Below, piece by piece: positions 26,702-46,423 of a DNA stretch of 64,000 nt. The number at the start of each line of letters is the position of its first letter. Positions within the stretch are counted from its first letter, which is position 1. Location of the stretch: contig NZ_CP059467.1 of assembly GCF_017894365.1 (NCBI RefSeq), positions 2,666,001-2,730,000 on the forward strand, given 5' to 3'. Source of the DNA: Aromatoleum bremense. Lineage in GTDB: Bacteria; Pseudomonadota; Gammaproteobacteria; Burkholderiales; Rhodocyclaceae. Both the position numbers and the translations under genes were made by a program. Under the pieces are notes generated by a model that searched no databases, was not told where the DNA came from, and was given only the letters and a program-made list of their open reading frames with translations.

Positions 26702-28765
26702 TCAGGGTACCCGTGCGCGCGTCGTGATCTGGATGAAGTCCGCCGTGATCTTGTCCTGCCCGTGCTTCGCGGCGATGTCGCGCAAGCTCTTGTCGACGGC
26801 GCGCAGATAATCCGATCGCGATTCCGATTCGGGGCGTAGCCCGTCGAAAAGCGGCACCGGCGTGACCAGCAGCACGATCAGCTCGGTGCCGAAAGGCTTC
26901 GAAATCGTCCATCCGGCCACCGTGCCGATCGTCGCGCTGTAACGCGGTGGCGCCCGGTTGGCTTGCGCCCGCCGGCTCGGCACGAGATGGACGACAGTGC
27001 CGTCGAGGACGTAATAGTCGACATGGACGTACGACTCGTAGGCGGGAGTCGTCACGTCGATGATCAGCGAGTCGCCTTCCGTCAGCGCGGCGCCGCCCGC
27101 CTGCATGCGGATCGAAGCCTCGCCGCCGGCCTGCCGGTTCTTCGCCCAGTAAGGCGCGAACGTTTCGATCACGCTGCATTTGTCGGCGCTGACCTGCTGC
27201 ACGTCGGTATTCAGCGTCGTCACGCCGGGGATCGCGGTCAGCGCGTCGCGCAAGCTTGCGAGCCCGAAGGTGGCGGGCAGGTAGCCCTGCACTTGCAGCG
27301 TGTTGCCGCTGCTCGACGCCGCCAGCGCCGAGCAGGGCACTTTCGCCAGCACCGGCGTGACCGATGCCACGGACAGCGGCGGGATCGCGGCGGGCGGTGC
27401 GGGTTCGGGTGCCGAGAATTCGCCTGGGGGGGCTACGGCCGGAGGAGGCGCCTCTTGCGGTGCGCCGGCAGTGGCGGAGGGAGCTTCGCCCTGTGCGACC
27501 TCGGCGGGTGTCCGATCGTAGAGAAGCGCGATCGCGACGAGCGCAGCAGCCACCGCCGCTGCAATCCCCGCCGCGACCGGCAGTGCGACGCGCTGCTGGG
27601 GTTTCATCCCGGCGAGGAATTGCGCGACGCTGGGGGTGCGGGTTTCGCGGTCGAACGACAGCGCGGTGCGCAACGTGCGCCACGCTCTGGCCGGCAGATG
27701 TTTCGGCCGCGGCGGACGCAGTCCCGCATTGCGCGCCTGGGTTGCCGGCAACTGCCCGAACGGATGCGCGCCGGTCAGCAGCTCGTAGGTGATGCAGGCG
27801 AGCGCATAGATGTCGTCGCGCGGGTCCGGTTCGCGGTGTTCGAGGATCTCCGGGCTTGCGTACGCTGGCGTCAGGCCGCCGAGGCTGCCGGCGTCGAAGA
27901 CCGTCGCTTCGGCCTCCTCCTCGGAGCGGCGGAAGACCCGCGCGATGCCGAAGTCGATGACCTTGACCGGACCCTTGTCGGTGAGGAAAACGTTCGCCGG
28001 CTTGAAGTCGCAGTGGACGAAGCCGTGCTCGTGCGCGTAGGCCAGCGCGTTGGCCATGCCGGTGATGATCGGCAGCGCTTCTGCGTACGGCATGCCGCGG
28101 AAACCCTGCGCGCGCAGCACCCGGCTCAGCGGCTTGCCGGACAGGTACTCCATCGTCAGGTACACCATCGATCCGTCGCGGTCGAAGTCGTACACCGCGA
28201 CGATGTTCGGGTGGGCGAGCGCCTGGGCTTTGCGTGCCTCGCGCTGCAGCGCGATCAGGGATTTCGGATGGCCGCGGAACTGGACGTTGAGGACCTTGAT
28301 CGCGATATACGGGTTCCGGTCGGAAGCTTCGAGCTTGCGCAGGTCGAGCGCCTTGTACACGGTGCCCATGCCGCCGAAGCCCAGGCATTCCTCGAGCAGG
28401 AAGCGGCCATTGACCGTGTCTCCGACGCCTTTGATGCGATCCGGTTCGGACGGCGCGGTACCTGCGGCGGGGGCGTGAATGCCGGAAATCCCGGAAACAT
28501 GGGCTCCCGGAGCGAGCTGCATGCGCGTCTGGTCGTCGTTCGCGTCCTTGTGCCCCGTGCCCGTGAGGTGCTCGATGCGCCGATGCACTTCGGCGTACAC
28601 GTCCGGCGGCAGCGGCAGCTTCGTGTGCTCTTCGCTCAGGACTTCGAGGAGTTTCGCCTGGTCGGGCTCGTTCGTCGCCAGCACGCGATCGACCTGCGCG
28701 AAAAACTCGTTGGGAGACAGACCGCCGCTGCGGAAAGCGTGAATCGCGTGCGAAAGACTAGCCAT
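26702..28765 (-). CDS. Membrane Ser/Thr protein kinase with C-terminal DUF4384-like domain
   Basis: The 687-residue protein has a short N-terminal helical region, a PknB-type kinase domain (~118-390) with a Gly loop in GFGGMGTVYK, the ATP-binding Lys157, the catalytic HCDFKPAN (Asp253, a non-RD form) and DFG (271-273). One membrane helix follows (~393-416), then a Pro/Ala linker with a BON-like segment, then a C-terminal DUF4384-like domain ending in ITTRARVP. It faces away from the exporter operon. The likely targets are the FHA proteins or the activator next door; this is inference from co-location. Confidence 0.9.
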   Translation of the reverse strand: MASLSHAIHAFRSGGLSPNEFFAQVDRVLATNEPDQAKLLEVLSEEHTKLPLPPDVYAEVHRRIEHLTGTGHKDANDDQTRMQLAPGAHVSGISGIHAPAAGTAPSEPDRIKGVGDTVNGRFLLEECLGFGGMGTVYKALDLRKLEASDRNPYIAIKVLNVQFRGHPKSLIALQREARKAQALAHPNIVAVYDFDRDGSMVYLTMEYLSGKPLSRVLRAQGFRGMPYAEALPIITGMANALAYAHEHGFVHCDFKPANVFLTDKGPVKVIDFGIARVFRRSEEEAEATVFDAGSLGGLTPAYASPEILEHREPDPRDDIYALACITYELLTGAHPFGQLPATQARNAGLRPPRPKHLPARAWRTLRTALSFDRETRTPSVAQFLAGMKPQQRVALPVAAGIAAAVAAALVAIALLYDRTPAEVAQGEAPSATAGAPQEAPPPAVAPPGEFSAPEPAPPAAIPPLSVASVTPVLAKVPCSALAASSSGNTLQVQGYLPATFGLASLRDALTAIPGVTTLNTDVQQVSADKCSVIETFAPYWAKNRQAGGEASIRMQAGGAALTEGDSLIIDVTTPAYESYVHVDYYVLDGTVVHLVPSRRAQANRAPPRYSATIGTVAGWTISKPFGTELIVLLVTPVPLFDGLRPESESRSDYLRAVDKSLRDIAAKHGQDKITADFIQITTRARVP

Positions 28766-29144
28766 CTGCTTCCCCTCGGTCGGTCAGGAGTCTTCCGGGC
28801 TCACGTTCGCGCCCGGTCGGGATTACGAGGATCAGCCGGGCGATGCTGCGGGTTGGTGGATGGGCGCGCATCGAAGCGTAGTGTCGAACAGGGAGAACGA
28901 TCGCGACGTCACCCTGCACGAGTTCGTCAATCGAAGTGTCTTTAAAAAATATAGTTCATCCGCGCCCGCTTGGCGGGTGCCCAGAGCGTGATCGGGAAGC
29001 GCCACGGTCGCAGAACGCGGCCTTTCCAGCCAAGTGTTCTGGCGCGGCAAACAGATTCCCTGAAATGTGTTCGATGAAAACCACTTCCGCTCGACGCGGG
29101 ATCCGCTGAACGGTCGCGGAAGACTTCCCTTTTCCGGGAAATAA

Positions 29145-29163
29145 AACGCTTTTTCCAAGCGTT
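29145..29163 (+). promoter_or_regulatory. Candidate activator site, AACGCTT inverted repeat
   Basis: AACGCTT-TTTCC-AAGCGTT is a perfect 7-base inverted repeat about 30-40 bases upstream of the -24 box of the exporter promoter. The same AACGCTTT core occurs at a similar distance (44 bases) from the -24 box of the peptide operon (44708-44715, minus strand). This is the arrangement expected of a binding site for the cluster's sigma-54 activator. Confidence 0.4.
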
Positions 29164-29193
29164 CGAGGGATTTTCCGGGTGCCGCCGATGAGA

Positions 29194-29208
29194 TGGCACG
29201 CTCCGTGC
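29194..29208 (+). promoter_or_regulatory. Sigma-54 promoter for the exporter operon
   Basis: TGGCACGCTCCGTGC matches the sigma-54 consensus (TGGCAC-N5-TTGC): a perfect -24 element, correct spacing and the invariant GC of the -12 element, with one mismatch (G for T). Transcription would start near 29220, about 230 bases before the first gene. Confidence 0.75.
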
Positions 29209-29448
29209 AACAGCTCTGCCGAGCCTGCGAAAAGTGTTCGAGCGCACTCGGCACCGCAGCAGGGACTTCGGGAGAAGCTGCTTGAAAATCTTGACGCTCG
29301 GCGATCTGCCCGTGACCCGAGGATGGGCGTTTTGACGAAAGAGCGGGCGAGCGGCTTCGAGGGTTTTCGCGGTCCGGTTTGCCCGGAACCGGTATTTTCA
29401 TCACGAGTCAAAGTTAAGCGATCGTCCGGCGCACGCGGGAGGGTGGGA

Positions 29449-31377
29449 ATGCGAAACACAGTGGCCGTTCCCGAGTCACCAGGCCCGGTGACCGCGTACC
29501 TCGAAGTCACCGCAACGGGCGAGGTGTTCCCCCTCCATGACGAAGTGGTGATCGGCCGGGATCCGCAGGATTCGCTGGCCGAGGGACGTTTTCTCTGCAT
29601 CCCCGAACACACCATCAGCCGCCGTCACGCGCGCGTGTGCCTGAGCGGCGGCGAGTATTTCATCGAGGACCTGCATTCGTTCAACGGCACGTTCGTGCTC
29701 GGCAAGCGCTTGCGCCCCGGCGTCTGGCATCCGCTGCACGACGGCGACGAGCTGTCGATCTCGTCCACGCAGCTCGCGTTCCATTCGCTGCTCGTGCCGC
29801 CTCGCGACAGCGCGCCGGCCGTGATCCGGCAGACGGTGGACGCGACCCAGTATGCCAGGCCACTCGAGGGACCTCCGCCGCAGAGCGAGGACGGCGACGC
29901 GCAGGGGGTGATCCGCAAGCTCCACGCGATGGCGCAGGTCGGCATCGCGCTCGGCGCCGTCACGAACTCCGCCACGCTGACCGAGAAGATCATGAACCTG
30001 ATCTTCGAGCTGTTTCCGCGCGCCGAGCGCGCCTTCATCCTGCTGAGGAAGAACGAAGGCGAGGCGCCGGTGCCGGTCGCGGCGCGCTGGCGCGACGGCA
30101 CCGTCGAGGACCCGGAGCAGCTGAGGATTTCTCGCACTATCGTCGACGAGGTGCTAAACAGGAAACTGTCGATTCTCTCCGTCGACACGCTGGCGGATCG
30201 CCACTTCGGCTGCCAGGAATCGATCGTTGCACAGGACATCCGGAGCGTCATGTGCGTCCCGCTGCTGCTCGAGGGCGAGGTGCTGGGACTGATCCAGCTC
30301 GACACGTCTTCGGATCCCTACGCGTTCAAGGGCCAGGATCTCGAAATGCTCACCGGCGTGTGCGCGGAGATGGCGGTCGCGCTGAAGAACTTCCAGCTGT
30401 ACTCGGATATCGAGCGCCTGCTGGAAGGCTTCGTCCGCGCCTCGGTGCAGGCGATCGAGGAACGCGACCCGGTGACCGCCGGGCACTCGTTCCGCGTCGC
30501 GCACTACGCCGAGAACCTCGCCCGGGCGGTCGACCGCGCCGACGAACCCGAACTGCGCGGCATCGCGTTCTCCGAGGACCAGCTGCGCGAGATCCGTTAC
30601 GCGGCGCTCTTGCACGACTTCGGCAAGGTGGGCGTGCGCGAGCATGTGCTGCGCAAGGAGAAGAAGCTCCACCACGCCGAGATGCGCCTGCTCGAACAGC
30701 GCTTCAAGTACGCGTGCGCGTGTCTCGAGCGGCAGGCCTACCGGAAACTGGCCGAGCTGCACTGCGAGCGCGAACTCGGCATCACCGCGTTCCGCGAAGA
30801 AAAGCGCCGCCTCGAACAGGATCTGCGCGAGGAGGTCGCGCGCCTCGACGAATTCCTCGCCGCGATCCGCCGCGCCAACGAGCCGGCGATCTCGTACACC
30901 GAGCGCTCGCACGAGCTCGACCGCCTCCTCGGCTGCACGGTCGACGAAGTGGACGGGGTTTCCGTGCCGTTGCTGAGCGACAGCGAGTTTGCGGCGCTCA
31001 GCGTGTCGAAAGGCTGCCTGACGGCCGAAGAGCGCAAGCAGATCGAAGCGCACGTCGCCGATTCGTATTCGTTCCTGATCCTGATCCCGTGGACGCGCGA
31101 CCTTGGTGGCGTGCCGGCGATCGCCCACGGCCATCACGAAAAGCTCGACGGCTCCGGCTACCCGATGGGGCTGCGCGGCGCGCAGATCAGCATCCAGACC
31201 CGCATCCTGACGATCTCGGACATCTATGACGCCCTGACCGCCGGGGATCGTCCGTACAAGAAGGCGATGTCGCTCGAGCATGCGCTGGACCTGCTGGATG
31301 CCGAATGCCGGGCGGGACGGCTCGATGCGCGGCTGTTCAGGGTGTTTGTCGAAGCGAAGGCGTGGGCCGCGGCCTAG
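29449..31377 (+). CDS. FHA-GAF-HD-GYP regulatory protein
   Basis: The 642-residue cytoplasmic protein has an FHA domain (~18-110; VVIGRDPQ, SRRHAR, SFNGTFV) that binds phosphothreonine, a GAF domain (~155-320), and an HD-GYP domain with HDFGK (His389-Asp390) and HHEKLDGSGYP (GYP 570-572). HD-GYP proteins hydrolyse c-di-GMP. The gap between HD and GYP is about 180 residues, more than twice the usual, and is filled by a charged helical insertion. GGGAGGG precedes the ATG at 29449. It is the first gene of the exporter operon and would couple kinase signalling to c-di-GMP. Confidence 0.9.
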   Translation: MRNTVAVPESPGPVTAYLEVTATGEVFPLHDEVVIGRDPQDSLAEGRFLCIPEHTISRRHARVCLSGGEYFIEDLHSFNGTFVLGKRLRPGVWHPLHDGDELSISSTQLAFHSLLVPPRDSAPAVIRQTVDATQYARPLEGPPPQSEDGDAQGVIRKLHAMAQVGIALGAVTNSATLTEKIMNLIFELFPRAERAFILLRKNEGEAPVPVAARWRDGTVEDPEQLRISRTIVDEVLNRKLSILSVDTLADRHFGCQESIVAQDIRSVMCVPLLLEGEVLGLIQLDTSSDPYAFKGQDLEMLTGVCAEMAVALKNFQLYSDIERLLEGFVRASVQAIEERDPVTAGHSFRVAHYAENLARAVDRADEPELRGIAFSEDQLREIRYAALLHDFGKVGVREHVLRKEKKLHHAEMRLLEQRFKYACACLERQAYRKLAELHCERELGITAFREEKRRLEQDLREEVARLDEFLAAIRRANEPAISYTERSHELDRLLGCTVDEVDGVSVPLLSDSEFAALSVSKGCLTAEERKQIEAHVADSYSFLILIPWTRDLGGVPAIAHGHHEKLDGSGYPMGLRGAQISIQTRILTISDIYDALTAGDRPYKKAMSLEHALDLLDAECRAGRLDARLFRVFVEAKAWAAA

Positions 31378-31418
31378 GCCGCGGAGCGCGAACTTTTCCC
31401 GTGGAAAGTGGAGACGCA

Positions 31419-32852
31419 ATGGACCCGTCAATGTCGATGTCAAGGCCGTGCGGGCGGGCGCTGCCGCTGCTGCGGGCGTTGCTGGCCGGCTCGCTGGCGC
31501 TGCTGCTCGCGAGCTGCGCGGGCGTGAAAGTGCCCGAATACCAGCGCCCCGACACGCCCGGCAAGGCGTCATGGTCGCGTCCCGCGGTGTCGGCGGCCGA
31601 CACGATCGCGCCCGACTGGTGGCGGGAGTTCCGCGATCCGACGCTCGACGAGCTCGTCAACCGTGCGATCGCCGGCAACTTCGACGTCAAGATCCTCGCT
31701 GCGCGCATCCAGGTCGCCGAGGCGCAGATCGGCGAAGCGCGCGCCGGTGCGCTGCCGACCCTCGACGTCGGCGCCGGCGCGAGTTTCGAGAAAAGCACCG
31801 GACAGAGCTTCCGCAAGCAGTTCAACCTCGGCACCCAGGTCAACTGGGACATCGACATCTGGGGCAAGGTCGAGAAAGGCGTCCAGGCGCAGACCGCCGA
31901 ATTCCACGCGACCGAAGCCGACTGGCGGGCGGGATACCTGACGCTGGTCTCGGACGTCGCGACGACGTATTTCCAGATCCTTCAGCTCGACGAGCAGATC
32001 GACCGCCAGCAGCGCGCGCTCGACCGCAGCCGGCAGATCCTCGCGACGTTCGAGGCGATGCTCGGGCAAGGCCTCGTGCCCCGCACGCAGGTGCTGCGCC
32101 AGCGCGCCGAGAACAACGCGCTGACCCGCGATCTGCTCGAACTGCAGCGCGCCCGCGGCCTCGCCGGCAACGCACTGGCGACGCTGCTCGGTGTGCCGGC
32201 GGGCGAATTCACCGTGCCGCCGGGAAAACTGCAGGAGCGCGTCGGGCTCCCGGCGGTGCCGGCCGGGCTGCCTTCCGAGCTCCTCAACCGCCGCCCCGAT
32301 ATCGTCGCCGCCGAGTTCCGGCTGCTCGAAGCCTACGACCTCGTCGGGCAGGCGCGGCTCGCGCAGCTGCCGTCGATCAGCCTGACCGGGCGCGGCGGCA
32401 CGTCGAGCTTCGCGCTCGGCGATCTGCTGAAATCCTTCACGTTCGGCTTTCTGCCGAGCATCAACATCCCCGCGTTCGACCCGAGCATCAAGGCGCGCCT
32501 CAAGACGACCGAGGCCCAGACCAAAGTCTTCGAGCACGAGTACCAGCGCACCGTGATCGCCGCGTTCGAGGAAGTCGAGAACGCGCTGACGAACCTCGAC
32601 GCCCACCGCCAGCAGCGCACCGAACTGCAGCAGCAGATCGACCAACTGCAGATCGTCGCCGCCCAGATCCAGGCCCAGCTCAGGGAAGGGCTCGTCTCCC
32701 AGCTCGAAGTGTTCGAGACCGAGCGCTCGCTGCTCGCGGCGCAGCTCGCGCTGCTCGCCAACCATCAGCAGATTCTCGCCGACACGGTGACGCTCTACAA
32801 AGCGCTCGGCGGCGGCTGGCCGACCGTCGAGGTCGCGAATGTCCGGCGTTGA
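31419..32852 (+). CDS. NodT-type outer-membrane efflux lipoprotein
   Basis: The 477-residue protein has a lipoprotein signal with a Cys after LLLAS (LASC, near residue 31) and two outer-membrane efflux (TolC-like) repeats, with typical LDELVNRAIAGNFDVKI and ELLNRRPDIVAAE blocks. It would form the outer-membrane channel for the ABC/HlyD exporter encoded in the same operon. GGAG precedes the ATG. A second, non-lipoprotein TolC is encoded at 52203. Confidence 0.9.
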   Translation: MDPSMSMSRPCGRALPLLRALLAGSLALLLASCAGVKVPEYQRPDTPGKASWSRPAVSAADTIAPDWWREFRDPTLDELVNRAIAGNFDVKILAARIQVAEAQIGEARAGALPTLDVGAGASFEKSTGQSFRKQFNLGTQVNWDIDIWGKVEKGVQAQTAEFHATEADWRAGYLTLVSDVATTYFQILQLDEQIDRQQRALDRSRQILATFEAMLGQGLVPRTQVLRQRAENNALTRDLLELQRARGLAGNALATLLGVPAGEFTVPPGKLQERVGLPAVPAGLPSELLNRRPDIVAAEFRLLEAYDLVGQARLAQLPSISLTGRGGTSSFALGDLLKSFTFGFLPSINIPAFDPSIKARLKTTEAQTKVFEHEYQRTVIAAFEEVENALTNLDAHRQQRTELQQQIDQLQIVAAQIQAQLREGLVSQLEVFETERSLLAAQLALLANHQQILADTVTLYKALGGGWPTVEVANVRR

Positions 32853-32941
32853 GCACGCAGATGAGGAAGTGCCCATGGGAAAACGGGAAAGCCCGGATCA
32901 GCCACGCGAAAGAGGTCTGTTCATGACGTCCGTGTTGTCGC

Positions 32942-35431: not shown

Positions 35432-36782
35432 GCCGCTGACCGAGGCCCTCGAGGATCACAGCGCCGAAGGGATCGCGATCCTGATCGCCGAACCGTCGCG
35501 CTTCGGCCTCGCTCTCGTCGCCGCCGTCCTCGGGCTGGTGCTGTCCGCGCTGGTGTGGTCGTTCGTCGGGCGCGCCGACGTGATCGTCACCGCGCACGGC
35601 GTGCTCGCGCCCGAATCGGACGTCCGGCGCGTCTATGCGCCGATCGACGGCGAGCTCGCCGACATCTACATGGAAGCGGGGCAGCCGGTGTCGCAGGGCG
35701 ACGTCCTCGCCCGGCTCAATGCACGCGGAGCGGTCGAGGCGGCGACGCACGCGCTCGAGGCGCAGCTCAAGCTCGAGGACGCCGAGCGGGAGTGGAAGCA
35801 GTTTCCCGAACGCAAAGCGCTGCTCGAACGCAAGGTCGCGGCCTTGAAGCAGCAGATCGAAGCGGCGCTGCAGCTGCACGAGCGGCGCACCGCGGAAGGC
35901 ACGACGAAGCTCGCCGAAGCCCAGCGCGCGCAGCTGCAGCAGGCGCGCAGCGAGCTCGACAACGCGCGGCGCATGCGCGACAGCACTCGCCTGGAGCTCG
36001 ACCGCTTCCAGCGGCTGTTGGCGCTGCCCGGCGGCGGCGGGGTGTCGGAGCTGCAGGTCGAAGCGAAGAAGAGCGCGTATCTGGCGGCGGAAAACGCGCT
36101 GCGCGTCGCGCAGTCGCGGCTCGGCGAACTGGACTTCCGTCTGAGCCAGGAAACCGCGCGGGCGACGGTCGAGCTCGAAAGCGGCGACCAGGAGCTGACG
36201 CGGCTGCGCATCCAGTACGACGCGGCGGCGCGCGAAATCGCGAACGAGGAGGACAAGCTGCGGCTGCAGCTGCAGACCGCGCGCCTCGCGGCGAACGCGG
36301 CCGAACGGATCCGCTTCGAGAACATCGACAAGGACAACTTCCTGCTGATCATTGCGCCGGTGTCGGGCGTCATCACCGACGTCGCCTCGACGCAGCCCGG
36401 CGACAAGATCCAGGCGAACACGCCGCTCGGCGGCATTGCGCCGAAGGACGCGCGCGCGGTGCTGAAGATGGACATCGCCGAGCGCGACCGCGCGTTCCTG
36501 CGCGAAGGGCTGCCGGTGAAGCTCAAGTTCAACGCGTTCCCGTACCAGCGCTACGGCCTCATCGACGGCCGGCTCGAGTTCATCTCGCCGGCGACTTCGC
36601 CCGCCGCGCAGAGCAAGGAGCCGGTCTACGAAGGCCACGTGACGCTCTCGCGCGATCACTACGAAGTCGCGGACACGCGCTACCCGGTGCGCTACGGGAT
36701 GACGGCGACCGCGGAGATCGTCGTCCGCGAGCGCCGCCTCATCGACCTCGCGCTCGATCCGTTCCGCCAGATCAGCGGCTGA
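35409..36782 (+). CDS. HlyD-type membrane-fusion protein
   Basis: The 457-residue protein has a cytoplasmic N-terminus, one membrane helix (~32-54), a lipoyl/barrel-sandwich half ([23 protein letters not shown]), a long coiled-coil hairpin (~110-300) and the second lipoyl half with [12 protein letters not shown], then a beta-barrel domain. This is the type I secretion adaptor that links the ABC exporter to the outer-membrane channel. It starts inside the end of the FHA gene. Confidence 0.93.
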
Positions 36783-36816
36783 TCCGATCCGGGCGCTTAC
36801 ACAAGGAGCACACCAG

Positions 36817-37569: not shown

Positions 37570-37585
37570 TCCCGTCGAGGTGATC

Positions 37586-40500
37586 ATGTCCACGGACGCC
37601 CCACCGAAACTCGATTCCCTCGCCGATTTCCTGTCGTCGGTGGAACTGCTGTCGCCCTTCACGCGCGACGAACTCGAGCAGCTGGCCGGGCAGGCCCAGC
37701 CGCGCTTCCTCGCGTTCGGCGAAACCGTGTGCAACGCCGGCGAGCCTGCCGACGGCGTGTTCGTGATCCGCGCAGGCTCCGTGCGGGTGTTCGCCGACGA
37801 GCACGGCAAGGAAATCAGCCTCGGCGTGCGCAAGGCGCGCGAGACCGTCGCCGAGATGGCGATGCTGCGCGAGTACCGGCACGAATTCTCGGCGCGCGCG
37901 TCGACGAAGACCGAGCTGCTGCTGATCCCGCGCCAGGCGTTCGAGCCGGTCCTCGCGAAGAACCCGGCGGCGCAGGCGTTCGTCACCAGCTATGTCGCGA
38001 TCGGCTCGGCCGGCGGCGTCGTCGCGCGGCTGTTCGATCTGCGCGGCAAGGTCGATAAGGCCGAACTCGAGGAGCTGGTGCGCAGCGTCGGCGTCAAGCG
38101 CGTTGCGGCCGGCCGGGAGATCCTCAAGCAGGACGCGCGCGACGACCGCCGCCTGTACGTGGTCCGCCAGGGCGAAGTACGCCTCGTGCGCACCGAGCAG
38201 GGCAGCGAGTACCCGCTGGCGACGCTCGGCCACGGCGAGATCTTCGGCGAGAAGGCGTGCCTGATGCGCCAGGAACAGGTCGCGTCGGTGGTCGCGGTCG
38301 TCGATACGACGCTGCTGGTGGTCCCCGAAAAATCCGTCCACCAGATCCTCGAGCGCAATCCGAAGCTGCGCGAGGTGCTCGAGGAGCGCATCCGCTTCGT
38401 CGAACGCGAGCTGCAGCGGCAGAAAAAGCTCGCCGAACGGCGCAACCTGCGCGTCATGCTCGACCTGCAGTCGAAGCCGGAGCTCGGCGAGCGGCTGATC
38501 CGACGCTTCCCGCTCGTCGAGCAGGCCGAGGAAATGGACTGCGGCGCGGCGTGCCTGGCGATGATCTGCCGCCACTACGACATCCCGATGACGCTCGGCA
38601 AGCTGCGCGAACTCGCGAACGTGACGACACAGGGCGCGACGCTCGACAGCCTCGCGCGCGCCGGCGAATCGCTCGGCTTCACCACGCGCGGCGTGCAATG
38701 CACGTTCGACGCGCTGCTCGGCTTCGAACTGCCGTTCATCGTGCATTGGGAGGGCTACCACTACGTCGTCGTGTATGGCGTCTCGAAGCGGCAGGTGTGG
38801 GTCGCCGATCCGGCCGTCGGCTTCAGGAAGATCGCGATCGAAGAGTTCGAGCGCGGCTGGAGCGGCACCTGCCTGCTGTTCACGCCCGGGCAGAATCTCG
38901 CGCAGCTGACGGTGTCGCGCTCGCCGTGGCTGCGTTTCGTCTCGTACCTGCGGCCGTACAAGAAGATCCTCGCGCACCTCGTCATGGCGACTTTCGTGAT
39001 CCAGGTGCTGGGCATCGTGCCGCCGCTGATCATCCAGAACATCCTCGACGGCGTGATCGTGCACGAGAACGTCAGCCTGCTGCACCTCCTGATCGCCGGA
39101 CTCGTCATCACCAACCTCTTCACGCTGCTGATGTCGGGCATCCGGGCGTTTCTCGCGAATTTCATGGTGCGCAACATGGACTTCGCGATGATGTCGCAGT
39201 TCTTCAAGCACACGCTGTCGCTGCCGTTCTCGTTCTTCGCCAAGCGCAAGACCGGCGACATCTTCGCACGCTTCCAGGAAAACCAGACGATCCGCGCGTT
39301 TTTGACCGAATCGACGGTCACGACGGTGCTCAACCTGCTGATGGTGTTCATCTACTTCACGATCCTGTTCCTCTACAACGTGAAGATGACGCTCCTGCTG
39401 CTCGCGTTCGTCATCCCGATCATGGCGCTGACGGTGCTCGTGACGCCGAAGATCAAGAACTATGCGCGCGAAGTGTTCACCACCTCGACCGACGCCAAAG
39501 CCTTCCTGATGGAAGCGCTCGGCGGCGTCGAGACGGTCAAGGGCATGGGCATCGAGCGCCCGGTGCGGCTGAAATGGGAGAAGAAATACGCGAAGGCGCT
39601 GGAGGTGCAATACCGCGCGCAGCGCTTCAACGTGCTGGTCGGCGTCGCCAGCCAGGTGCTCAACGCCGCGACGACGATCGCGATCCTGTGGGTCGGCGCG
39701 TCGCAGGTGCTCGCGCACCAGCTCACGATCGGTCAGCTCATCGCGTTCAACGCCTTGATGGGCAGCGTGCTCGCGCCGCTGATGGGGCTGGTCGCGCTGT
39801 GGAGCCAGGTCAATGACGCCGGGGTCGCGATGGAGCGCCTCGGCGACGTGCTCGACATGGAGCCGGAGCAGCGCCCGGAAGAGGTCGCCTCGCGCGTCGT
39901 GCTGCCGGACCTGCAGGGTCACATCGCCTTCGAAGGCGTGTATTTCCGCTACGGCGGCGACGAGACGCCATACGTGCTCGAGAACATCAGCTTCGAGATC
40001 AAGCCCGGCGAGCTCGTCGCGATCGTCGGCCGCAGCGGTTCGGGCAAGACGACGCTGGCGAAGCTGCTCGTCGGCTTCTACCCGCCGACCGACGGGCGCA
40101 TCGTCGTCGATGGCTACGACATGGCGACGATCGACAAGGAGTACTACCGCGCGCAGGTCGGCTACGTGATGCAGAGCAACCTCTTGTTCTCCGGCACCAT
40201 CGCCGAGAACATCGCCAGCGGCGACGAGGCGCCGGACCGGCGGCGCATCGAGGAGGTCGCGCGCATGGCCGACGCCCACGCGTTCATCCGCAAGATGCCG
40301 CTGGGCTATGAGCAGATCGTCGGCGAGCGCGGCGTGGGCCTGTCCGGCGGTCAGATCCAGCGCCTGTGCATCGCCCGCGCGCTGTACCACGACCCGCGCC
40401 TGCTGGTGTTCGACGAGGCGACTTCCGCGCTCGACACGCAGTCGGAGAGCAACATCATCAGCAACATGCACGACATCCTCGCCGGGCGCACCGCGGTCGT

Positions 40501-40651
40501 CATCGCCCACCGGCTGTCGACGATCATGCGCGCCGACAAGATCCTCGTGCTGTACGAAGGCTCGATCGTCGAGCAGGGGCGCCACGACGAGCTGGTCGAT
40601 CGGCGCGGCATGTATTACCAACTGGTGCAGAAGCAGCTGGCGGCGGCATGA
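37586..40651 (+). CDS. ABC exporter with two cNMP-like domains and C39 leader peptidase
   Basis: The 1021-residue protein has two cyclic-nucleotide-binding-like domains (~25-140 and ~160-270) and a C39 peptidase domain (~300-440) with an intact triad: Cys319 in EMDCGAAC, His392 in EGYHYVVV and Asp408 in ADPAVG, plus the oxyanion Gln in VEQAE. Six membrane helices follow (~455-740), then an ATPase domain with GRSGSGKTTL, LSGGQIQR, LLVFDEAT and IAHRL. C39 exporters cleave double-glycine leaders during export. The second cNMP domain lacks the Arg that normally contacts the cyclic phosphate. The peptides at 42.8-44.6 kb are the obvious cargo. Confidence 0.95.
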   Translation: MSTDAPPKLDSLADFLSSVELLSPFTRDELEQLAGQAQPRFLAFGETVCNAGEPADGVFVIRAGSVRVFADEHGKEISLGVRKARETVAEMAMLREYRHEFSARASTKTELLLIPRQAFEPVLAKNPAAQAFVTSYVAIGSAGGVVARLFDLRGKVDKAELEELVRSVGVKRVAAGREILKQDARDDRRLYVVRQGEVRLVRTEQGSEYPLATLGHGEIFGEKACLMRQEQVASVVAVVDTTLLVVPEKSVHQILERNPKLREVLEERIRFVERELQRQKKLAERRNLRVMLDLQSKPELGERLIRRFPLVEQAEEMDCGAACLAMICRHYDIPMTLGKLRELANVTTQGATLDSLARAGESLGFTTRGVQCTFDALLGFELPFIVHWEGYHYVVVYGVSKRQVWVADPAVGFRKIAIEEFERGWSGTCLLFTPGQNLAQLTVSRSPWLRFVSYLRPYKKILAHLVMATFVIQVLGIVPPLIIQNILDGVIVHENVSLLHLLIAGLVITNLFTLLMSGIRAFLANFMVRNMDFAMMSQFFKHTLSLPFSFFAKRKTGDIFARFQENQTIRAFLTESTVTTVLNLLMVFIYFTILFLYNVKMTLLLLAFVIPIMALTVLVTPKIKNYAREVFTTSTDAKAFLMEALGGVETVKGMGIERPVRLKWEKKYAKALEVQYRAQRFNVLVGVASQVLNAATTIAILWVGASQVLAHQLTIGQLIAFNALMGSVLAPLMGLVALWSQVNDAGVAMERLGDVLDMEPEQRPEEVASRVVLPDLQGHIAFEGVYFRYGGDETPYVLENISFEIKPGELVAIVGRSGSGKTTLAKLLVGFYPPTDGRIVVDGYDMATIDKEYYRAQVGYVMQSNLLFSGTIAENIASGDEAPDRRRIEEVARMADAHAFIRKMPLGYEQIVGERGVGLSGGQIQRLCIARALYHDPRLLVFDEATSALDTQSESNIISNMHDILAGRTAVVIAHRLSTIMRADKILVLYEGSIVEQGRHDELVDRRGMYYQLVQKQLAAA

Positions 40652-41967
40652 AGATCCTGACTCCGGGGTTGCGCGGCAGTGCGGTGATTTCGTACGCCGG
40701 GCTGCTCGAGAAGATCGAGATCCTGCGCTCGACGCTGCGCTGGGCGCCGACGCTCGCGCGGCCCGAGATCGAGAAGCTCTTGCGGCAGGCCAACGCGGTG
40801 CGCGACGAGGTGATGCAGCTGTCGCACAAGGAGCGCTTCGTCGAGGCGGCCGCGGCCGAAAGCGTGCGCGTCGAGCGTACGCCGGGCGCGCGGCGGCGGG
40901 CGCTGCTCGAGCGCAGCTTCGTCTTCGAAGGCGCGTTCGGCGACAACCCGCAGCTCCTGGAGGCGCTCGAAATCGCCGAGAAGGCGGCGCCGACCGACCT
41001 GCCGGTCCTCATCGACGGCGAAAGCGGCACCGGCAAGGAGCTGATGGCGAAAGTGATCCACGCCAACGGCTCGCGCTCCGACAAGCCCTACATCTCGGTC
41101 AACTGCGGCGCGATCCCCGACAACCTGCTGGAGTCCGAGCTTTTCGGCCACCGCAAGGGCGCGTTCACCGGCGCGGTGAGCGATCGCAAAGGCAAGTTCG
41201 AAAGCGCGCACACCGGCACGATCTTCCTCGACGAGATCGGCGAATTGCCGCTGTCCGGGCAAGTGAAGCTGCTGCGGGTGCTCGAATCGCACGAGATCCA
41301 GCGCGTCGGCTCCGACGAGCCGATCGCCGTCGACACCCGCATCGTCGCGGCGACGAACCGCAACCTGCGCCGCCTGAGCGAAGAAGGCCGGTTCCGCGAG
41401 GACCTGTTCTATCGCCTCGGCGTCATCCACGTGACGCTGCCGCCGCTGCGCGAACGCCGCGACGAGATCCCGCTGCTGTTCGCGTTCTTCGGCGACGAGG
41501 CCGCCGCAGCACTCAAGCGCCGCCCGGTCCGCATGACGCCGCGGCTGCGGGAGTTCCTGCTGGACTATCCCTATCCCGGCAACATACGGGAGCTGCGCAA
41601 CATGATTTACCGCGTCTCCTGTCTGGCCGGGGAGACCGCCGACCTGCAGCATCTGCCTGCCGATATCCGCCCCGATGCGACGCGGTCGGCACCGGCAAAT
41701 GCGGCGGCCGCGCTGCCGGCTGCGAGCGACGCGTCGGCCGCGACGGCAGCCGCGATATCGCTCAGCGACGCAAAACGTGCCGCCAGCGATGAGGCCGAGA
41801 GGCTGTTCCTCGAGCGGGGCCTGCAGCAGGTCGGCGGCACCGTCGCGGAGCTTGCGCGGCGCTGCGACATGAACCGCTCACACCTGCAGACGCTGCTGAA
41901 GAAACACGGCATCCGCTCGAAGGACTTCCGCCACCGCCCGCCGTCCCGCGGCGACGAGGGCCGCTGA
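40648..41967 (+). CDS. Sigma-54-dependent activator without a recognised sensor domain
   Basis: The 439-residue protein has an N-terminal helical region (~1-95) of no known family, an AAA+ domain (~100-330) with Walker A GESGTGKE, the sigma-54-contacting GAFTGA loop, Walker B TIFLDEIGEL and FREDLFYRLGVI, and a C-terminal Fis-type helix-turn-helix (GGTVAELARRCDMNRSHLQTLLKK). No receiver, GAF or PAS domain is present. It overlaps the exporter gene by 4 bases (ATGA). The two sigma-54 promoters in the cluster make it the likely local activator; control may come through phosphorylation or protein contacts. Confidence 0.92.
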   Translation: MKILTPGLRGSAVISYAGLLEKIEILRSTLRWAPTLARPEIEKLLRQANAVRDEVMQLSHKERFVEAAAAESVRVERTPGARRRALLERSFVFEGAFGDNPQLLEALEIAEKAAPTDLPVLIDGESGTGKELMAKVIHANGSRSDKPYISVNCGAIPDNLLESELFGHRKGAFTGAVSDRKGKFESAHTGTIFLDEIGELPLSGQVKLLRVLESHEIQRVGSDEPIAVDTRIVAATNRNLRRLSEEGRFREDLFYRLGVIHVTLPPLRERRDEIPLLFAFFGDEAAAALKRRPVRMTPRLREFLLDYPYPGNIRELRNMIYRVSCLAGETADLQHLPADIRPDATRSAPANAAAALPAASDASAATAAAISLSDAKRAASDEAERLFLERGLQQVGGTVAELARRCDMNRSHLQTLLKKHGIRSKDFRHRPPSRGDEGR

Positions 41968-41996: not shown

Positions 41997-42002
41997 ACCC
42001 CG

Positions 42003-42767
42003 TCACAGTGCGGGGTTGAGCATCGTCATGTCGGCGCTGCAGGAATCTTCGGCGCGCACGACCACCGCGGTGATGTTGTCGCGCCCGCCGCCTTTCAGCG
42101 CGAGCTCGACCAGCGTGTCCGCCGCCTGCGGGCAGTCGCCCGCAGCGAGCGCGTTGGCGATGTCCCGCTCGCTCGCGTAATTCGTCAGGCCGTCGCTGCA
42201 CAGCAGGAAGATGTCGCCGTCGACGACCGGCATCGAGCCTTCGTCGAGTTCGAGCGTGTCGAGGGCGCCGACCGCGCGCGTGACCAGGTTCTGCGCGGAC
42301 GCGAGCGCTTCGCTGTCGACAAGGCCCCGCGCACGGAGCTCCTCGGCGTGGCTGTGGTCGTGGCTCAGCAGCATCAGCCGGCCGGCGCGATAGAGGTAGA
42401 TGCGGCTGTCGCCGGCCCACAGGTACGCGCAGAACGGCCCCCAGCCGAGCATGACGACGACGGTGCTGCCGATGATCGGGACTTCGCGCATGGCCGCTTC
42501 CGCACGAAGCTGGCGATTGACGGCCTGCAGGCGCTGTCGCGCCGTGGCGATGAACCTCGTCAGGTCGGCGCACGGGGCGAGACCGTCGATCGCCGACACG
42601 ATCATGCGGCTCGCCAGCTCGCCCGCGTCATGCCCGCCCATGCCGTCGGCGACCACCCACAGGCCGCGCTCGGGGCGGTCGAGGAAGGCGTCCTCGTTGA
42701 CATCGCGGACCAGGCCCACGTGGCAGCGGGCCGCTGAGGTCCAGCGGATCCGGTCGGCAGGGGGCAC
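42003..42767 (-). CDS. PP2C-type Ser/Thr protein phosphatase
   Basis: The 254-residue protein (GTG start) has the PP2C metal motifs RDVNEDAF near residue 23, VVADGMGGHDAG near 37, LLCSDGLTNYA and GRDNITAVVV. It should oppose the kinase at 26702 by removing phosphate from Thr/Ser in FHA partners. It is the last gene of the peptide operon, 78 bases downstream of the last small peptide, so cargo and phosphatase are made together. Confidence 0.93.
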   Translation of the reverse strand: MPPADRIRWTSAARCHVGLVRDVNEDAFLDRPERGLWVVADGMGGHDAGELASRMIVSAIDGLAPCADLTRFIATARQRLQAVNRQLRAEAAMREVPIIGSTVVVMLGWGPFCAYLWAGDSRIYLYRAGRLMLLSHDHSHAEELRARGLVDSEALASAQNLVTRAVGALDTLELDEGSMPVVDGDIFLLCSDGLTNYASERDIANALAAGDCPQAADTLVELALKGGGRDNITAVVVRAEDSCSADMTMLNPAL

Positions 42768-42845: not shown

Positions 42846-43037
42846 CTATTGGAACAGCAGGGTCGGCACGGCGCGGCGCGGTGCCTGTTCCGCCGCAGCG
42901 GGGCGAAAAGCTGCGCGGGGTGCTGCGCGCCCGCCCCTCGAACGTCCGCCCAGGCGGGCGCCTCCGCTGATCGCCCGCATTGCCTCGCGGTCGAGCGCCG
43001 TGTTTTCCGGCAAATCCCTGATAACTATGGTGGCCAT
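42846..43037 (-). CDS. Double-glycine leader peptide A, cationic core
   Basis: This 63-residue precursor has a leader ending at Gly25-Gly26 (TALDREAMRAISGG), with hydrophobic residues at the -4, -7 and -12 positions that C39 peptidases recognise. The predicted core is 37 residues, rich in Arg, Ala, Pro and Gly, strongly basic and without Cys, so it differs entirely from the other four cores. GAGGA precedes the ATG. Such a cationic Pro/Arg-rich core could be antimicrobial or bind anionic surfaces; this is inference. Confidence 0.82.
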   Translation of the reverse strand: MATIVIRDLPENTALDREAMRAISGGARLGGRSRGGRAAPRAAFRPAAAEQAPRRAVPTLLFQ

Positions 43038-43200: not shown

Positions 43201-43491
43201 CTACCGCTTGAAGTTGATGGCTGTCTGGGTCGCGGCGACGTTAATGGCCGCATTGGCAGCCGAATTGTCGATGTCGATCACCTGGATCTGATTGTTCATT
43301 TGATCCGCGACGAAGATGTTGTTGGTCTGGTAAAAGTTGGTGACAGCGCCGAAGCGGGACGACGCGTGCCCGATATAAGGGCTTATCCATCCATAGACCC
43401 ACGGCGCGCCTCCCCGACCATTGACGCAGGACATTGTCTTGCGGTCCAGGGTAAGGTCGGTCCGCAGGTCCTTGACGGTGATGGCAGCCAT
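43201..43491 (-). CDS. Double-glycine leader peptide B, long Asn/Gln-rich core
   Basis: This 96-residue precursor begins MAAITVKDLRTDLTLDRK and the leader ends in SCVNGRGG (Gly27-Gly28). The core (68 residues) has an aromatic start (APWVYGWISPYIG) and a second half made of Asn, Gln, Ala, Ile and Val (for example NNQIQVIDIDNSAANAA). It has no Cys. The repeated Asn/Gln-x-hydrophobic pattern recalls secreted beta-solenoid or amyloid subunits, but there is no true repeat. GGAGG lies upstream of the ATG. Confidence 0.83.
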   Translation of the reverse strand: MAAITVKDLRTDLTLDRKTMSCVNGRGGAPWVYGWISPYIGHASSRFGAVTNFYQTNNIFVADQMNNQIQVIDIDNSAANAAINVAATQTAINFKR

Positions 43492-43563: not shown

Positions 43564-43845
43564 TCAGGCCATGCCGCCGAAGAGGTGGCCGAAGAAATTG
43601 CGGTTCTTGCTGTCGCTGTCGTTCGATGCCACCTGCGTCGGCATCGAGTCGACCTGGATGATCACCGGACCGCTGCCGGCAAAGTTTGCGCCGTTGGCGA
43701 CAGCCACCGGAGCGAACATCGACTGGAAGTTCTGCTGCTGAGTCGCGTTGGCCTGATCGAAGAAGCCGCCGCGGACGGCGGACATGGACTTGCGGTCGAG
43801 GGCCTTGTCGAGGGACAGATCCTTGATGGTGAGAGTCGAATTCAT
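43564..43845 (-). CDS. Double-glycine leader peptide C
   Basis: This 93-residue precursor has the leader DLSLDKALDRKSMSAVRGG (to Gly26-Gly27) and a 66-residue Cys-free core. With peptides D and E it shares QANATQQ, the APV-VAN stretch, GSGPV and PTQ-A-ND in the same order. The C-terminus is FFGHLFGGMA, unlike the Tyr-rich ends of D and E. GGAGAAC precedes the ATG at 43845. Confidence 0.87.
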   Translation of the reverse strand: MNSTLTIKDLSLDKALDRKSMSAVRGGFFDQANATQQQNFQSMFAPVAVANGANFAGSGPVIIQVDSMPTQVASNDSDSKNRNFFGHLFGGMA

Positions 43846-43937
43846 GGTAGTTCTCCTGAAACGTTGGTTTGGCAAACAGGCATTGATCCGGCGGAAGCTG
43901 GCGGAGACTGTCGTCGCCTCCGCCAGGCTCGTCGCTA

Positions 43938-44210
43938 TTACCAGTAGTAGTGCGGATAGCCGATCTTGTTCTTGCTGTAGCTGTCGTTCGATGCGTACTG
44001 CGTCGGCTCGGACGTGACCTGCATATTCACCGGGCCGCTGCCGCCGAAGTTGGCCAAGTTGGCGACTTCGACCGGCGCCGTCATCGTCTGGCCGTTCGCC
44101 TGCTGGGTGGCATTGGCCTGATCGAAGAAGCCGCCGCGTACCGCGGACATCGCCTTGCGATCGAGCGCCTTGTCGAGGGACAGGTCCTTGATGATCAGAG
44201 TCGAGTTCAT
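43938..44210 (-). CDS. Double-glycine leader peptide D
   Basis: This 90-residue precursor is a paralogue of C. The leader IIKDLSLDKALDRKAMSAV is almost identical and ends in RGG. The core (63 residues) has FFDQANATQQ, GSGPVNMQV, SEPTQYASND and ends HYYW. The near-identity of the leaders at DNA level and the variable cores point to recent duplication with diversification of the exported part. Confidence 0.87.
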   Translation of the reverse strand: MNSTLIIKDLSLDKALDRKAMSAVRGGFFDQANATQQANGQTMTAPVEVANLANFGGSGPVNMQVTSEPTQYASNDSYSKNKIGYPHYYW

Positions 44211-44294
44211 GATGGTTCTCCTGCGAGGTTGGTGAGGTATCGATCCGGCAGAGGCTGGCGGAGGCTGGCGGCGCCTCCGCCGGGCTCGTCGGTA

Positions 44295-44576
44295 TTACGC
44301 GGCGTAGGGGTAGTAGTGCGAATAGCGGATCTTGTTCGTGTTGTCGGCGTCGTTCCACGCGTCCTGGGTCGGCTTGGACGTGACCTGGAAATTCACCGGG
44401 CCACTGCCGCCGAAGTCCGCGCCGTTGGCGACCGCCACCGGAGCAAACATTTCCTGGAAGTTCCCCTGCTGAGTCGCGTTGGCCTGGTTGCCGACGCCGC
44501 CGCGAACCGACGACATGGCTTTGCGATCGAGGGCTTTGTCGAGGGACAGGTCCTTGATGATCAGGTTGGATTTCAT
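44295..44576 (-). CDS. Double-glycine leader peptide E, first gene of the peptide operon
   Basis: This 93-residue precursor starts MKSNLIIKDLSLDKALDRK and the leader ends SSVRGG (Gly27). The core (66 residues) has NQANATQQ, GGSGPVNFQV, SKPTQDAWND and ends SHYYPYAA. It is closest to the sigma-54 promoter at 44649-44663. GGAGAACG lies upstream of the ATG. The function of this peptide family is not known to me. Confidence 0.87.
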   Translation of the reverse strand: MKSNLIIKDLSLDKALDRKAMSSVRGGVGNQANATQQGNFQEMFAPVAVANGADFGGSGPVNFQVTSKPTQDAWNDADNTNKIRYSHYYPYAA

Positions 44577-44936
44577 GGTCGTTCTCCTGAGAGCTCTGTT
44601 ACGGGTTGGATTTGCATCGAGCACTTTCGCGCGCTCGACAGACCTATCGCAGAGACCGTGCCAGTTGTCGGGCGAGACCCGGAATTTACTTGCAATACAT
44701 TGAAAACAAAGCGTTATTTTGCGAGATTCAGGAGATTCTGCGCCGCGGTCGTGGCGCGCGGCAACGTGCTGTGATGGTTTTCGTCGAACAGGTTGCCGCA
44801 ATTCTGTGTGCTGGTTAGCAACAGTCTGGTTCGCCCTCTCCGCTTAAGCTCACCTTAATCTTCCCGGTACAGACTTTCGGCTGGTGATGGGGGGCACCGC
44901 CACCCGACCGACCCCTTTCCGGAGCGACCACAGCCG
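44577..44936. other. 360-base divergent region between peptide operon and PPOX/radical SAM operon
   Basis: The stretch is visibly less GC-rich than its surroundings. On the minus strand it holds a sigma-54 promoter (44649-44663) and an AACGCTTT motif (44708-44715) that matches the inverted repeat before the exporter promoter. On the plus strand I see no convincing sigma-70 promoter for the PPOX gene. No further gene is apparent. Confidence 0.65.
44649..44663 (-). promoter_or_regulatory. Sigma-54 promoter for the peptide operon
   Basis: On the minus strand the sequence reads TGGCACGGTCTCTGC: a perfect -24 element, five-base spacer and a -12 element CTGC with the essential GC. Transcription should start near 44637, about 60 bases before peptide E. 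It differs from the exporter promoter at only a few positions outside the core. Confidence 0.75.
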
Positions 44937-45431
44937 ATGAACCTGCCGCCGTTCAATGAGGGCGAACTTGCCGCCCAGCAGCGCTGGAACACCCGCACGA
45001 TTTGGGACGACGCCCGCCGCCGGCGCCTGCTGTGGGACCACATCCCGGGCGAATTCCACGCCCGCCTGGAAAACGCGCCGTTCTTCTTCCTCGCAACCAG
45101 CTCGCCCGATGGCCGCTGCGACTGCTCGTTCAAGGGCGGCGGGCCCGGACTGTTGCGCATCCTCGACGGAAGGCGCTTCGTCTTTGCCGATTTCGACGGC
45201 AATGGCGCCTTCATGAGCCTCGGGAATATCCTGTCGAATCCGCATGTCGGCTGCCTGTTCATCGATTTCGCCGACGGAAGCCGCCTGCGCGTCAACGGCA
45301 AGGCGACGATCCACGATGCGGGCGAACTACTGGCTCTCTTTCCGGGTAGCACCCGCGTGGTGATGGTCGATATCGAGCAGGTGGTGCCGAACTGCCCGAA
45401 CCACGTTCCCCGGCTGGTGCCCTTGCCATGA
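44937..45431 (+). CDS. Pyridoxamine 5'-phosphate oxidase-like flavoprotein
   Basis: The 164-residue protein has the split-barrel fold of PPOX-like FMN proteins: PFFFLATSSPDGRCDCSFKGG near residues 48-68, GRRFVFADFDGNGAF, NPHVGCLFIDF and LRVNGKATI. It lacks the C-terminal PNPOx signature, so it is not a vitamin B6 enzyme; relatives bind FMN, F420 or haem. It is coupled to the radical SAM gene by a 4-base overlap and diverges from the peptide operon. Confidence 0.85.
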   Translation: MNLPPFNEGELAAQQRWNTRTIWDDARRRRLLWDHIPGEFHARLENAPFFFLATSSPDGRCDCSFKGGGPGLLRILDGRRFVFADFDGNGAFMSLGNILSNPHVGCLFIDFADGSRLRVNGKATIHDAGELLALFPGSTRVVMVDIEQVVPNCPNHVPRLVPLP

Positions 45432-46423
45432 GCCCGGCCGCAGCGGAAATGCGGGGCCGAGGAAACTACCGGATCGCGGTCAACGCCGAATGGACGAGCA
45501 AGTGCAACGCGCTGTGCCCGATGTGCCCACGCGAGCTGATCGAGCACCCTCAGCTCATGAAGCGGGAGAGCTGGCAGCAGTTGCTCGGGCGGCTGTCGCC
45601 GGAGAGGGTTTTCCGTGTCGTCATCGCCGGCTATGGCGAGCCGACCACGCACAAGGGGTTCTTCGAGTTTGTCGACGACCTTCGCGGTCATCCGGTGCGC
45701 TTCGACATGGTCAGCAACGGACACCTGCTCGACCCCGACAAGCTCCGCCATCTGGACGGCGCGATCGAACTGCTGCTGGTGTCCTTTTCCAGTATTGATC
45801 CTGCGGTGTATGGACGTGTCCATGTGAACCTCGACCACGCTCGCGTCATGGCGAACATCCAGGCTGCACGGAAACTGCTCCGGCACACGCGGCTCGCGAT
45901 CAGCCTCACGCCGATGGCCGAATGCCTGCCTTCGCTGCCGGAGACGATCGACTGGCTGCGCGCGCAGGGCGTGGATACGCTGACAATGTCGCCGACCCTG
46001 TACAACCGCGCCGGCAGCCTGAAGGCCGACGAGCCGGCAACGCGCACGTTGCGCGACACCATCCGGCGCCATCGATTGCGCTCGCAGGAAATCGATTTCA
46101 TTCCCGGCGCCCGCGACCTGCTGCGGCAATGGCGCCGCAACCGCTTCCGCTGCATCCCGCGCAACGTCGATGTCTTCGTTTCGGCGGCAGGAGAATATCT
46201 TTACTGCTACAACGACATCGGCCACCGGCACGTCATCGGGCACGTGGCGACCGACAGCCTGGATGAGGTGCTGAGGCGGCGCGAGGGCATGGGGCCGATC
46301 GCCGAACTGTGCAACGGCTGCAACATGCGCCACCGTTACGGGGCAGCCGAGTTGCTGAGGGCCGGCGCGTCGTTTGCCAAAGCCCGATTCGAGGGCGGGC
46401 TCACCGCGCTGCGGTCCGCCTGA
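45428..46423 (+). CDS. Radical SAM protein with C-terminal auxiliary-cluster domain
   Basis: The 331-residue protein has the radical SAM cluster motif CNALCPMC (Cys26, Cys30, Cys33), a GEPT motif (GYGEPTTHKGF) and a TIM-barrel core, then a SPASM/twitch-like tail with FRCIP, YLYCYND and LCNGC (four Cys, enough for one extra [4Fe-4S] cluster). Such enzymes often modify ribosomal peptides or cofactors. The peptide cores nearby lack Cys, so sactipeptide chemistry is excluded for them; Tyr, Asn or Lys chemistry remains possible. A role unrelated to the peptides cannot be ruled out. Confidence 0.88.
   Translation: MSPAAAEMRGRGNYRIAVNAEWTSKCNALCPMCPRELIEHPQLMKRESWQQLLGRLSPERVFRVVIAGYGEPTTHKGFFEFVDDLRGHPVRFDMVSNGHLLDPDKLRHLDGAIELLLVSFSSIDPAVYGRVHVNLDHARVMANIQAARKLLRHTRLAISLTPMAECLPSLPETIDWLRAQGVDTLTMSPTLYNRAGSLKADEPATRTLRDTIRRHRLRSQEIDFIPGARDLLRQWRRNRFRCIPRNVDVFVSAAGEYLYCYNDIGHRHVIGHVATDSLDEVLRRREGMGPIAELCNGCNMRHRYGAAELLRAGASFAKARFEGGLTALRSA

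Follow-up and report, generated by a model that had tools for sequence, protein, structure and literature searches.

A window of 64,000 nucleotides from Aromatoleum bremense (bases 2666001-2730000 of the single-contig 4.38 Mb genome; GC content 67.7%) contains a gene set for a predicted type I peptide exporter, together with a membrane Ser/Thr kinase, two proteins with FHA domains and a PP2C phosphatase. Domains were assigned by Pfam and NCBIfam scans and membrane segments by a simple hydropathy scan. In the initial annotation of this DNA, the block starting at position 26702 was read as a peptide export locus controlled by phosphorylation and driven by sigma-54. The genes named there (kinase, PP2C, FHA proteins, HD-GYP, exporter, parvulin, sigma-54 activator and PPOX/radical SAM pair) were all recovered in place by the scans, and a pattern check showed that the signature motifs are kept in the kinase, the C39 domain, the ABC domain, PP2C, HD-GYP and the activator. 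At this locus, the closest named relatives, compared by the exporter N-terminus, are Aromatoleum anaerobium (97%) and A. buckelii (95%).

Seven successive genes on the plus strand at 29443-41967 are arranged like an operon, with intergenic distances of -23 to +89 bp. The first encodes an FHA-GAF-HD-GYP protein (29443-31377, Pfam). It is followed by a NodT/TolC-type outer-membrane factor (OMF; 31419-32852; TIGR01845 score 300.8, cut-off 210.05), a second FHA protein, which we call FHA2 (32942-35431), a HlyD-family adaptor (35409-36782), a PpiC-type parvulin (36817-37569; TIGR04500 score 96.8, under the cut-off of 180), the exporter (37586-40651) and the sigma-54 activator (40648-41967). The parvulin has no hydrophobic segment in the hydropathy scan and is presumably cytoplasmic. 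The exporter contains two cNMP-binding domains, a C39 peptidase and an ABC transporter. This peptidase-ABC fusion retains the catalytic and Walker/signature motifs, and the HlyD adaptor, the OMF and small precursors with a double-glycine (GG) leader are encoded alongside. C39 peptidases cut after GG. Thus, the exporter has the type I (colicin-V-like) layout for GG-leader peptides, from which cleavage and secretion of the peptide cores are predicted.

The kinase gene (26702-28765, minus strand; Pfam Pkinase) lies to the left of this operon, and the PP2C gene (42003-42767, minus strand; Pfam) and five genes for GG peptides lie to its right. The conserved gene set extends further left than position 26702 and includes genes that the initial annotation overlooked. 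One of them encodes an FGE/SUMF1-like protein (25502-26653, plus strand; FGE-sulfatase 196.2 bits), whose N-terminus reads like a signal peptide and whose best solved relative is PvdO (5hha). The others are a pair of DUF4399 genes at 24271-25192 on the minus strand: the first (24764-25192, start at 25192 or nearby; 123 bits to Pfam DUF4399) and the second (24271-24708; 127.3 bits) both encode a protein with an N-terminal hydrophobic segment.

We scanned contigs of 84,980 species with the exporter N-terminus and obtained 156 relatives, of which the best 80 were kept for locus counts. Genes were counted within 10 kb flanks, some of which are shortened by contig ends, and presence was decided by bit-score thresholds of our choice. 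The 80 loci come mostly from Caballeronia and Paraburkholderia, and also from Noviherbaspirillum, Aromatoleum, Cupriavidus, Herbaspirillum, Herminiimonas, Thauera and others. Around these exporters, we found the activator in 80 loci, PpiC in 79, PP2C in 72, the class A peptide (described below) in 71, FHA2 in 68, HlyD in 68, OMF in 67, each DUF4399 gene in 62 and the FGE/SUMF1-like gene in 58, many loci being cut by the flank at the last. An identical set of ten genes is found around the exporter in 54 of the 80 loci. In contrast, the HD-GYP gene was present in only 5 loci, the PPOX gene in 2 and the radical SAM gene in 1. Therefore, the HD-GYP protein, which had been proposed as a member of the system, is a lineage-specific accessory, and we rejected it as a core part.

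The kinase was matched in only 4 of the 80 loci, because it lies beyond the fetched flanks or elsewhere in the genome. When 19 exporter genomes, chosen by hand from the 80 loci and mostly with long contigs, were searched as a whole, the kinase was matched in all 19 (the weakest two best E values were 2.5e-165 and 8.4e-165). Similarly, for 11 of the 12 loci without FHA2 the genome was searched, and all 11 contain a match elsewhere (best E 7e-129 or lower). We then searched 130 genomes of one Burkholderiales family, that of genome G158, for the three genes. The kinase, FHA2 and the exporter were each found in an identical set of 34 genomes, and none of them was found in the other 96. The 34 genomes span 7 of 25 genera, and three or more of these genera include genomes that lack the set as well (G224, G119, G231). 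FHA2 lies less than 10 kb from the exporter in 34/34 genomes. For the kinase, the distance to the exporter is at most 25 kb in 24 of them and 120 kb to 1.05 Mb in 4; in the other 6 the kinase is on another contig. In a sample of 200 genomes of the order, FHA2, the kinase and the exporter occurred in the same two, and in a phylum sample strong exporter matches were found in 3 of 398 genomes, besides six weak ones (E 1.9e-27 to 4.2e-24). The initial annotation had named relatives in which the exporter and the kinase/FHA genes never co-occur as evidence against its idea; the opposite was found, with all three present in the same 34 of 130 genomes. Because the kinase, FHA2 and the exporter are kept together even after separation, a functional bond is more plausible than hitch-hiking, although the genomes are related. 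These counts, which are uncorrected for kinship, give strong comparative support to the idea that the three genes are inherited together as one system. As judged from the sequence comparisons, the conserved core is the kinase, FHA2, PP2C and the exporter set with the FGE-like protein and usually the two DUF4399 proteins.

The three signalling proteins have a feature in common. The kinase has HCD in place of the HRD catalytic motif, a hydrophobic segment at residues 397-415 and a conserved C-terminal domain, which is presumably periplasmic; its C-terminal 272 residues gave no solved-structure match up to E 1. Threonines T80 and T288, the latter in the activation loop, are conserved in 22 kinase sequences (that of the window, 20 unbroken matches chosen by hand and that of G158). 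FHA2 consists of two FHA domains (Pfam), a linker, a hydrophobic segment at 333-351 and a C-terminal domain, which is helical in the predicted structure. The linker has low confidence in this structure, and it carries an invariant D-x-T266-x-F. PP2C ends in a [D/E]-x-T248-x-hydrophobic-N-P tail, which is invariant among the aligned relatives. Thus, a [D/E]-x-T-x-hydrophobic motif is conserved in the kinase, the FHA2 linker and the PP2C tail, whereas a scan of four exporter/activator proteins did not find it. Sequences shorter than 80% of the window protein (one FHA2, one activator) were excluded from the motif count. The conserved threonines are candidate phosphosites, and their conservation suggests that the kinase may phosphorylate FHA2 and that the phosphatase may reverse this.

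Several further observations were made on FHA2. Its linker contains a second conserved threonine pair within residues 245-247 (T245 98%, T247 100%), which is another possible phosphosite. For the C-terminal domain, Foldseek gave only a weak TPR row (3ieg, E 0.021), and a repeat search barely probed this domain. One or two stop codons interrupt the FHA2 match in G281, G252, G336, G272, G330, G338, G216 and G220, and it spans only the first ~610-660 residues in ten of the 34 family genomes and in others; assembly error and divergence are both possible causes. In Noviherbaspirillum denitrificans (locus L055, genome G209), one of the 11 genomes searched because their locus lacked FHA2, two halves of the FHA2 match are at different places: the N-terminal halves of the kinase and FHA2 lie together, and matches to the C-terminal halves lie elsewhere (C1:666500-669974, 1268768-1269631 and 2014647-2015462). 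The signalling and the sensing parts may have become separated naturally in this species.

The five GG peptides are all encoded on the minus strand: peptide 5, with a short core (42846-43037), peptide 4, class A (43201-43491), and peptides 3, 2 and 1, class B (43564-43845, 43938-44210 and 44295-44576). A whole-genome profile search up to E 10 found only these five, the number claimed initially. Pfam (two peptides tested), NCBIfam (five tested, matches far under cut-off) and PHROG (three tested) gave no family for them. The class A peptide, whose gene adjoins PP2C, is the most conserved candidate substrate. Its core, G-APWV-GWI-PY...N-F-A-QMINQFQ-VDV-N, is strongly conserved across genera. The class B core is A-Q-I-Q-Q-N-NNGNN-AFA-P-Q. 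A profile comparison linked the two classes at 99.3% probability, to which the shared leader contributes. We found 484 homologs at E <= 0.001, and the named rows among the 120 matches listed are "hypothetical" or "uncharacterized". In addition, four records of a plasmid collection, which are Caballeronia and Burkholderia replicons of 1.3-3.2 Mb, contain class A peptides without an annotated feature.

A GG pattern identified 159 peptides in 73 of 81 sources; it misses some, so these peptide counts are lower bounds. The class A set of 65 includes one peptide, from L083, that is class B by sequence. Asparagine and glutamine (N+Q) make up 21% of the cores (medians), compared with 5.1% of the pooled window open reading frames (ORFs). 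N+Q is above the 99th percentile of 468 66-residue stretches, taken from window ORFs picked by base composition, in 65/65 class A and 85/87 class B peptides. For same-length pairs with at least 75% nucleotide identity and a dS of 0.05-2, the median ratios of nonsynonymous to synonymous substitution rates (dN/dS) of the cores are 0.12 (374 pairs) and 0.25 (81 pairs), and no core pair exceeds 1. By these measures, the peptides are an N/Q-rich family under purifying selection. Because the cores are conserved and dN/dS is low, structural or signalling peptides are favoured over fast-diversifying toxins.

Regulation by sigma-54 was part of the initial proposal. The activator possesses GAFTGA and has no receiver domain by Pfam. 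A sigma-54-type -24/-12 site with one mismatch to TGGCACG-N4-YTGCW lies before the exporter operon (29194-29209, plus strand). Another, found by a matrix and consensus scan, lies before the peptide cluster (44648-44663, minus strand), and its 5' end is 87 bases ahead of the first peptide start. No site precedes the inner peptide genes, which fits a common use of the first promoter. The sites recur before peptide genes in relatives: with matrix weights set by hand, 2550 random stretches of 200 bases served as controls, and their 99th percentile was exceeded by the upstream regions of 56/87 class B, 40/65 class A and 0/7 short peptides. Together with the adjacent activator, the sites suggest that sigma-54 may activate the peptides and the exporter operon.

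Taken together, we propose with a probability of roughly 0.6 that the locus encodes a dedicated type I secretion system for GG-leader, N/Q-rich small proteins under a membrane Ser/Thr-kinase switch. In the mechanism that we envisage, the periplasm-facing parts (the SUMF-like protein, the kinase C-terminal domain and the FHA2 helical domain) would sense an envelope or surface signal. The kinase would autophosphorylate at activation-loop T288 and N-tail T80 and, as the conserved sites suggest, phosphorylate T266 of the FHA2 linker and T248 of the phosphatase tail. The FHA domains would bind these phosphothreonines, and the contact of FHA2 with the HlyD/ABC complex might then change so that the exporter is opened or assembled; such gating by FHA2 is suggested by gene linkage and topology. 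PP2C would reset the switch. In parallel, the sigma-54 activator would turn on the peptides and the exporter operon. The parvulin may hold the precursors in an export-competent state, C39 would cut after GG, and the released cores would most likely serve as matrix or structural peptides that associate with themselves, and not as toxins. A more specific version adds that the control is undescribed, in that a kinase-phosphatase pair with the common [D/E]-x-T-x-hydrophobic motif phosphorylates the membrane-anchored FHA2 scaffold, the kinase tail and the phosphatase tail and thereby lets an envelope signal gate type I peptide export post-translationally, and that the cargo is a new group of N/Q-rich amyloid-like Burkholderiales matrix peptides. 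We put this version forward tentatively, with the odds somewhat against it.

Several points weigh against this proposal. The motif count (4/25 versus 0/53) is post hoc, the threonine motif having been spotted by eye before counting. Serine columns in a like context occur in PP2C, the activator and PpiC, and OMF, SUMF, DUF4399 and HD-GYP were outside the scan. Co-inheritance shows neither the direction nor the target of phosphorylation. A kinase on another contig can reflect an assembly break (the kinase contig of G289 is 5.9 kb). PP2C is missing from the fetched flanks of 8/80 loci and the class A peptide from those of 9/80; some of these contigs end early, that of L072 does not, and the counts concern flanks, not whole genomes. 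The window holds three sigma-54-type sites where 1.39 are expected, and 21 of 100 shuffles reach three. Because this number is not above chance, the sigma-54 case rests on the position of the sites and their recurrence in relatives. AlphaFold did not yield a fold for the class A peptide (predicted local distance difference test score 44), and the class A profile matched solved structures at best with E 0.21 and 0.28. Since no fold was obtained, the case for a matrix role comes from composition, conservation and the analogy with cyanobacteria described below, from which we infer that the cargo may be amyloid-like.

The same phosphorylation-controlled exporter might instead deliver microcin-like bacteriocins against competitors. 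A C39/HlyD/OMF exporter with GG leaders is indeed a microcin architecture, and some loci contain several paralogous peptides. However, the conservation of the class A core across genera and the absence of core pairs with dN/dS above 1 do not fit this idea, the cores are N/Q-rich with low charge, and no immunity-like gene was noticed, although no systematic search for one was made. Therefore, we consider bacteriocins unlikely. A little less likely still is that the kinase, FHA2 and PP2C are co-inherited with the exporter and that the kinase regulates another process, for example sigma-54 transcription or c-di-GMP signalling. The FHA domain of the HD-GYP protein and the activator gene within the operon would agree with this. 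On the other hand, the kinase is kept with the exporter even where it is distant (10/34 genomes), FHA2 never lies 10 kb or more from the exporter in the 34 genomes, and HD-GYP is rare at exporter loci.

The PPOX-type flavoprotein (44937-45431, plus strand; Pfam) and the radical SAM protein (45428-46423, plus strand; Pfam) had also been counted as members of the system. This pair is 0.4-1.9 kb beyond the peptides, and the peptides might be precursors of ribosomally synthesized and post-translationally modified peptides modified by it. The pair is not conserved at exporter loci, and A. buckelii (L007) matches all five peptides with neither PPOX nor radical SAM in the fetched locus. We therefore rejected this very improbable reading and regard the two genes as neighbours outside the core. 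Each of these gene families, taken singly, is widespread among bacteria (the genome has 78 matches to PF00005 by itself), but a chance neighbourhood is practically negligible and already contradicted by the ten genes shared by most loci and the identical genome sets.

Among other neighbouring genes, an RND efflux adaptor and pump gene pair was read at 46709-51048 of the window, after the radical SAM gene. By reading, locus L003 (G158) has an RHS-repeat-like gene (2699-5338) between the activator and PP2C, and an LRAT-like ORF (549-1067) near the class A peptide.

Overall, the initial interpretation holds for the linkage of kinase, FHA2 and exporter, for PP2C and for the sigma-54 sites. From the gene set, we infer that phosphorylation may control the exporter. 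A type I system is generally regarded as open as soon as it is expressed; the gene set suggests that bacteria can switch type I peptide secretion on and off by protein phosphorylation. Because the candidate threonines are conserved, this idea is directly testable. The peptide family would represent a class of secreted product that is new for environmental Burkholderiales.

Finally, we compared the locus with known systems. The NHLM/NHLP (TIGR03796, TIGR03794) and HlyB/colicin-V exporters have the same C39-ABC plus HlyD layout. However, the exporter scores below the curated cut-offs (TIGR03796, 571.7 versus 853.3; TIGR01846, 615.2 versus 725.55; TIGR03794, 71.8 versus 156.2), and no NHLP-type leader model matches the five peptides. 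In Synechococcus, which offers the nearest studied precedent for the peptides, according to passages of two reports, the C39 transporter PteB is needed for efficient secretion of the small GG-motif proteins EbfG, and EbfG1-3 form amyloid structures that likely contribute to the biofilm matrix (PMC4997328, PMC9981879). As described in part of a survey, HlyD occurs in all groups of cyanobacterial GG-peptide clusters, and SurA (rotamase) is present in groups I, II and VI (PMC3140520). Thus, a C39 exporter, HlyD, a rotamase and GG peptides are common to those systems and this locus. In contrast, the word "kinase" is absent from the main text of PMC4997328 and PMC3140520, "forkhead" is absent from that of PMC3140520, and the relevant passages describe no sigma-54 activator. 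The likeness of the peptides to EbfG comes from description, not sequence comparison, and amyloid here refers to N/Q enrichment only.

For FHA/kinase control, two systems come closest. To our knowledge, Rv1747/PknF of Mycobacterium tuberculosis has no C39 domain, HlyD, OMF or GG peptides. According to parts of PMC3908365 and PMC5549992, the ABC transporter Rv1747 carries two FHA domains and shares an operon with a Ser/Thr kinase, by which it is positively modulated. On the basis of these parts, it is the nearest example of FHA/kinase control over an ABC exporter in our literature searches; there the FHA domains are on the transporter itself, whereas here they are on the separate FHA2. The other system is the type VI secretion system (T6SS), of which TagR is an FGE-like protein. 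In the passages describing it, the T6SS threonine phosphorylation pathway, TagQRST-PpkA-Fha1-PppA, has a kinase, an FHA protein, a PP2C-type phosphatase and an upstream periplasmic protein, TagR (PMC10482370). The window likewise contains a kinase, an FHA protein, PP2C and an FGE-like protein all together, and we propose a TagR-like role for the last. However, T6SS membership was rejected for this genome, in which TssB (PF05591) gave 0 matches (of 14 control genomes, E. coli matches); the module sits with a type I exporter, and FHA2 differs by its pair of FHA domains, its hydrophobic segment and its helical C-terminal domain. We found no description of kinase/FHA control combined with a GG-peptide type I exporter in the open-access literature, nor the terms for it in the available part of a type I secretion review (PMC8277102). 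Thus, the parts are known, and their combination appears to be new, as do the peptide family and the threonine motif that the signalling proteins share. If the proposed kinase/FHA/phosphatase gate is true, it would show that the T6SS phospho-switch is a portable module.

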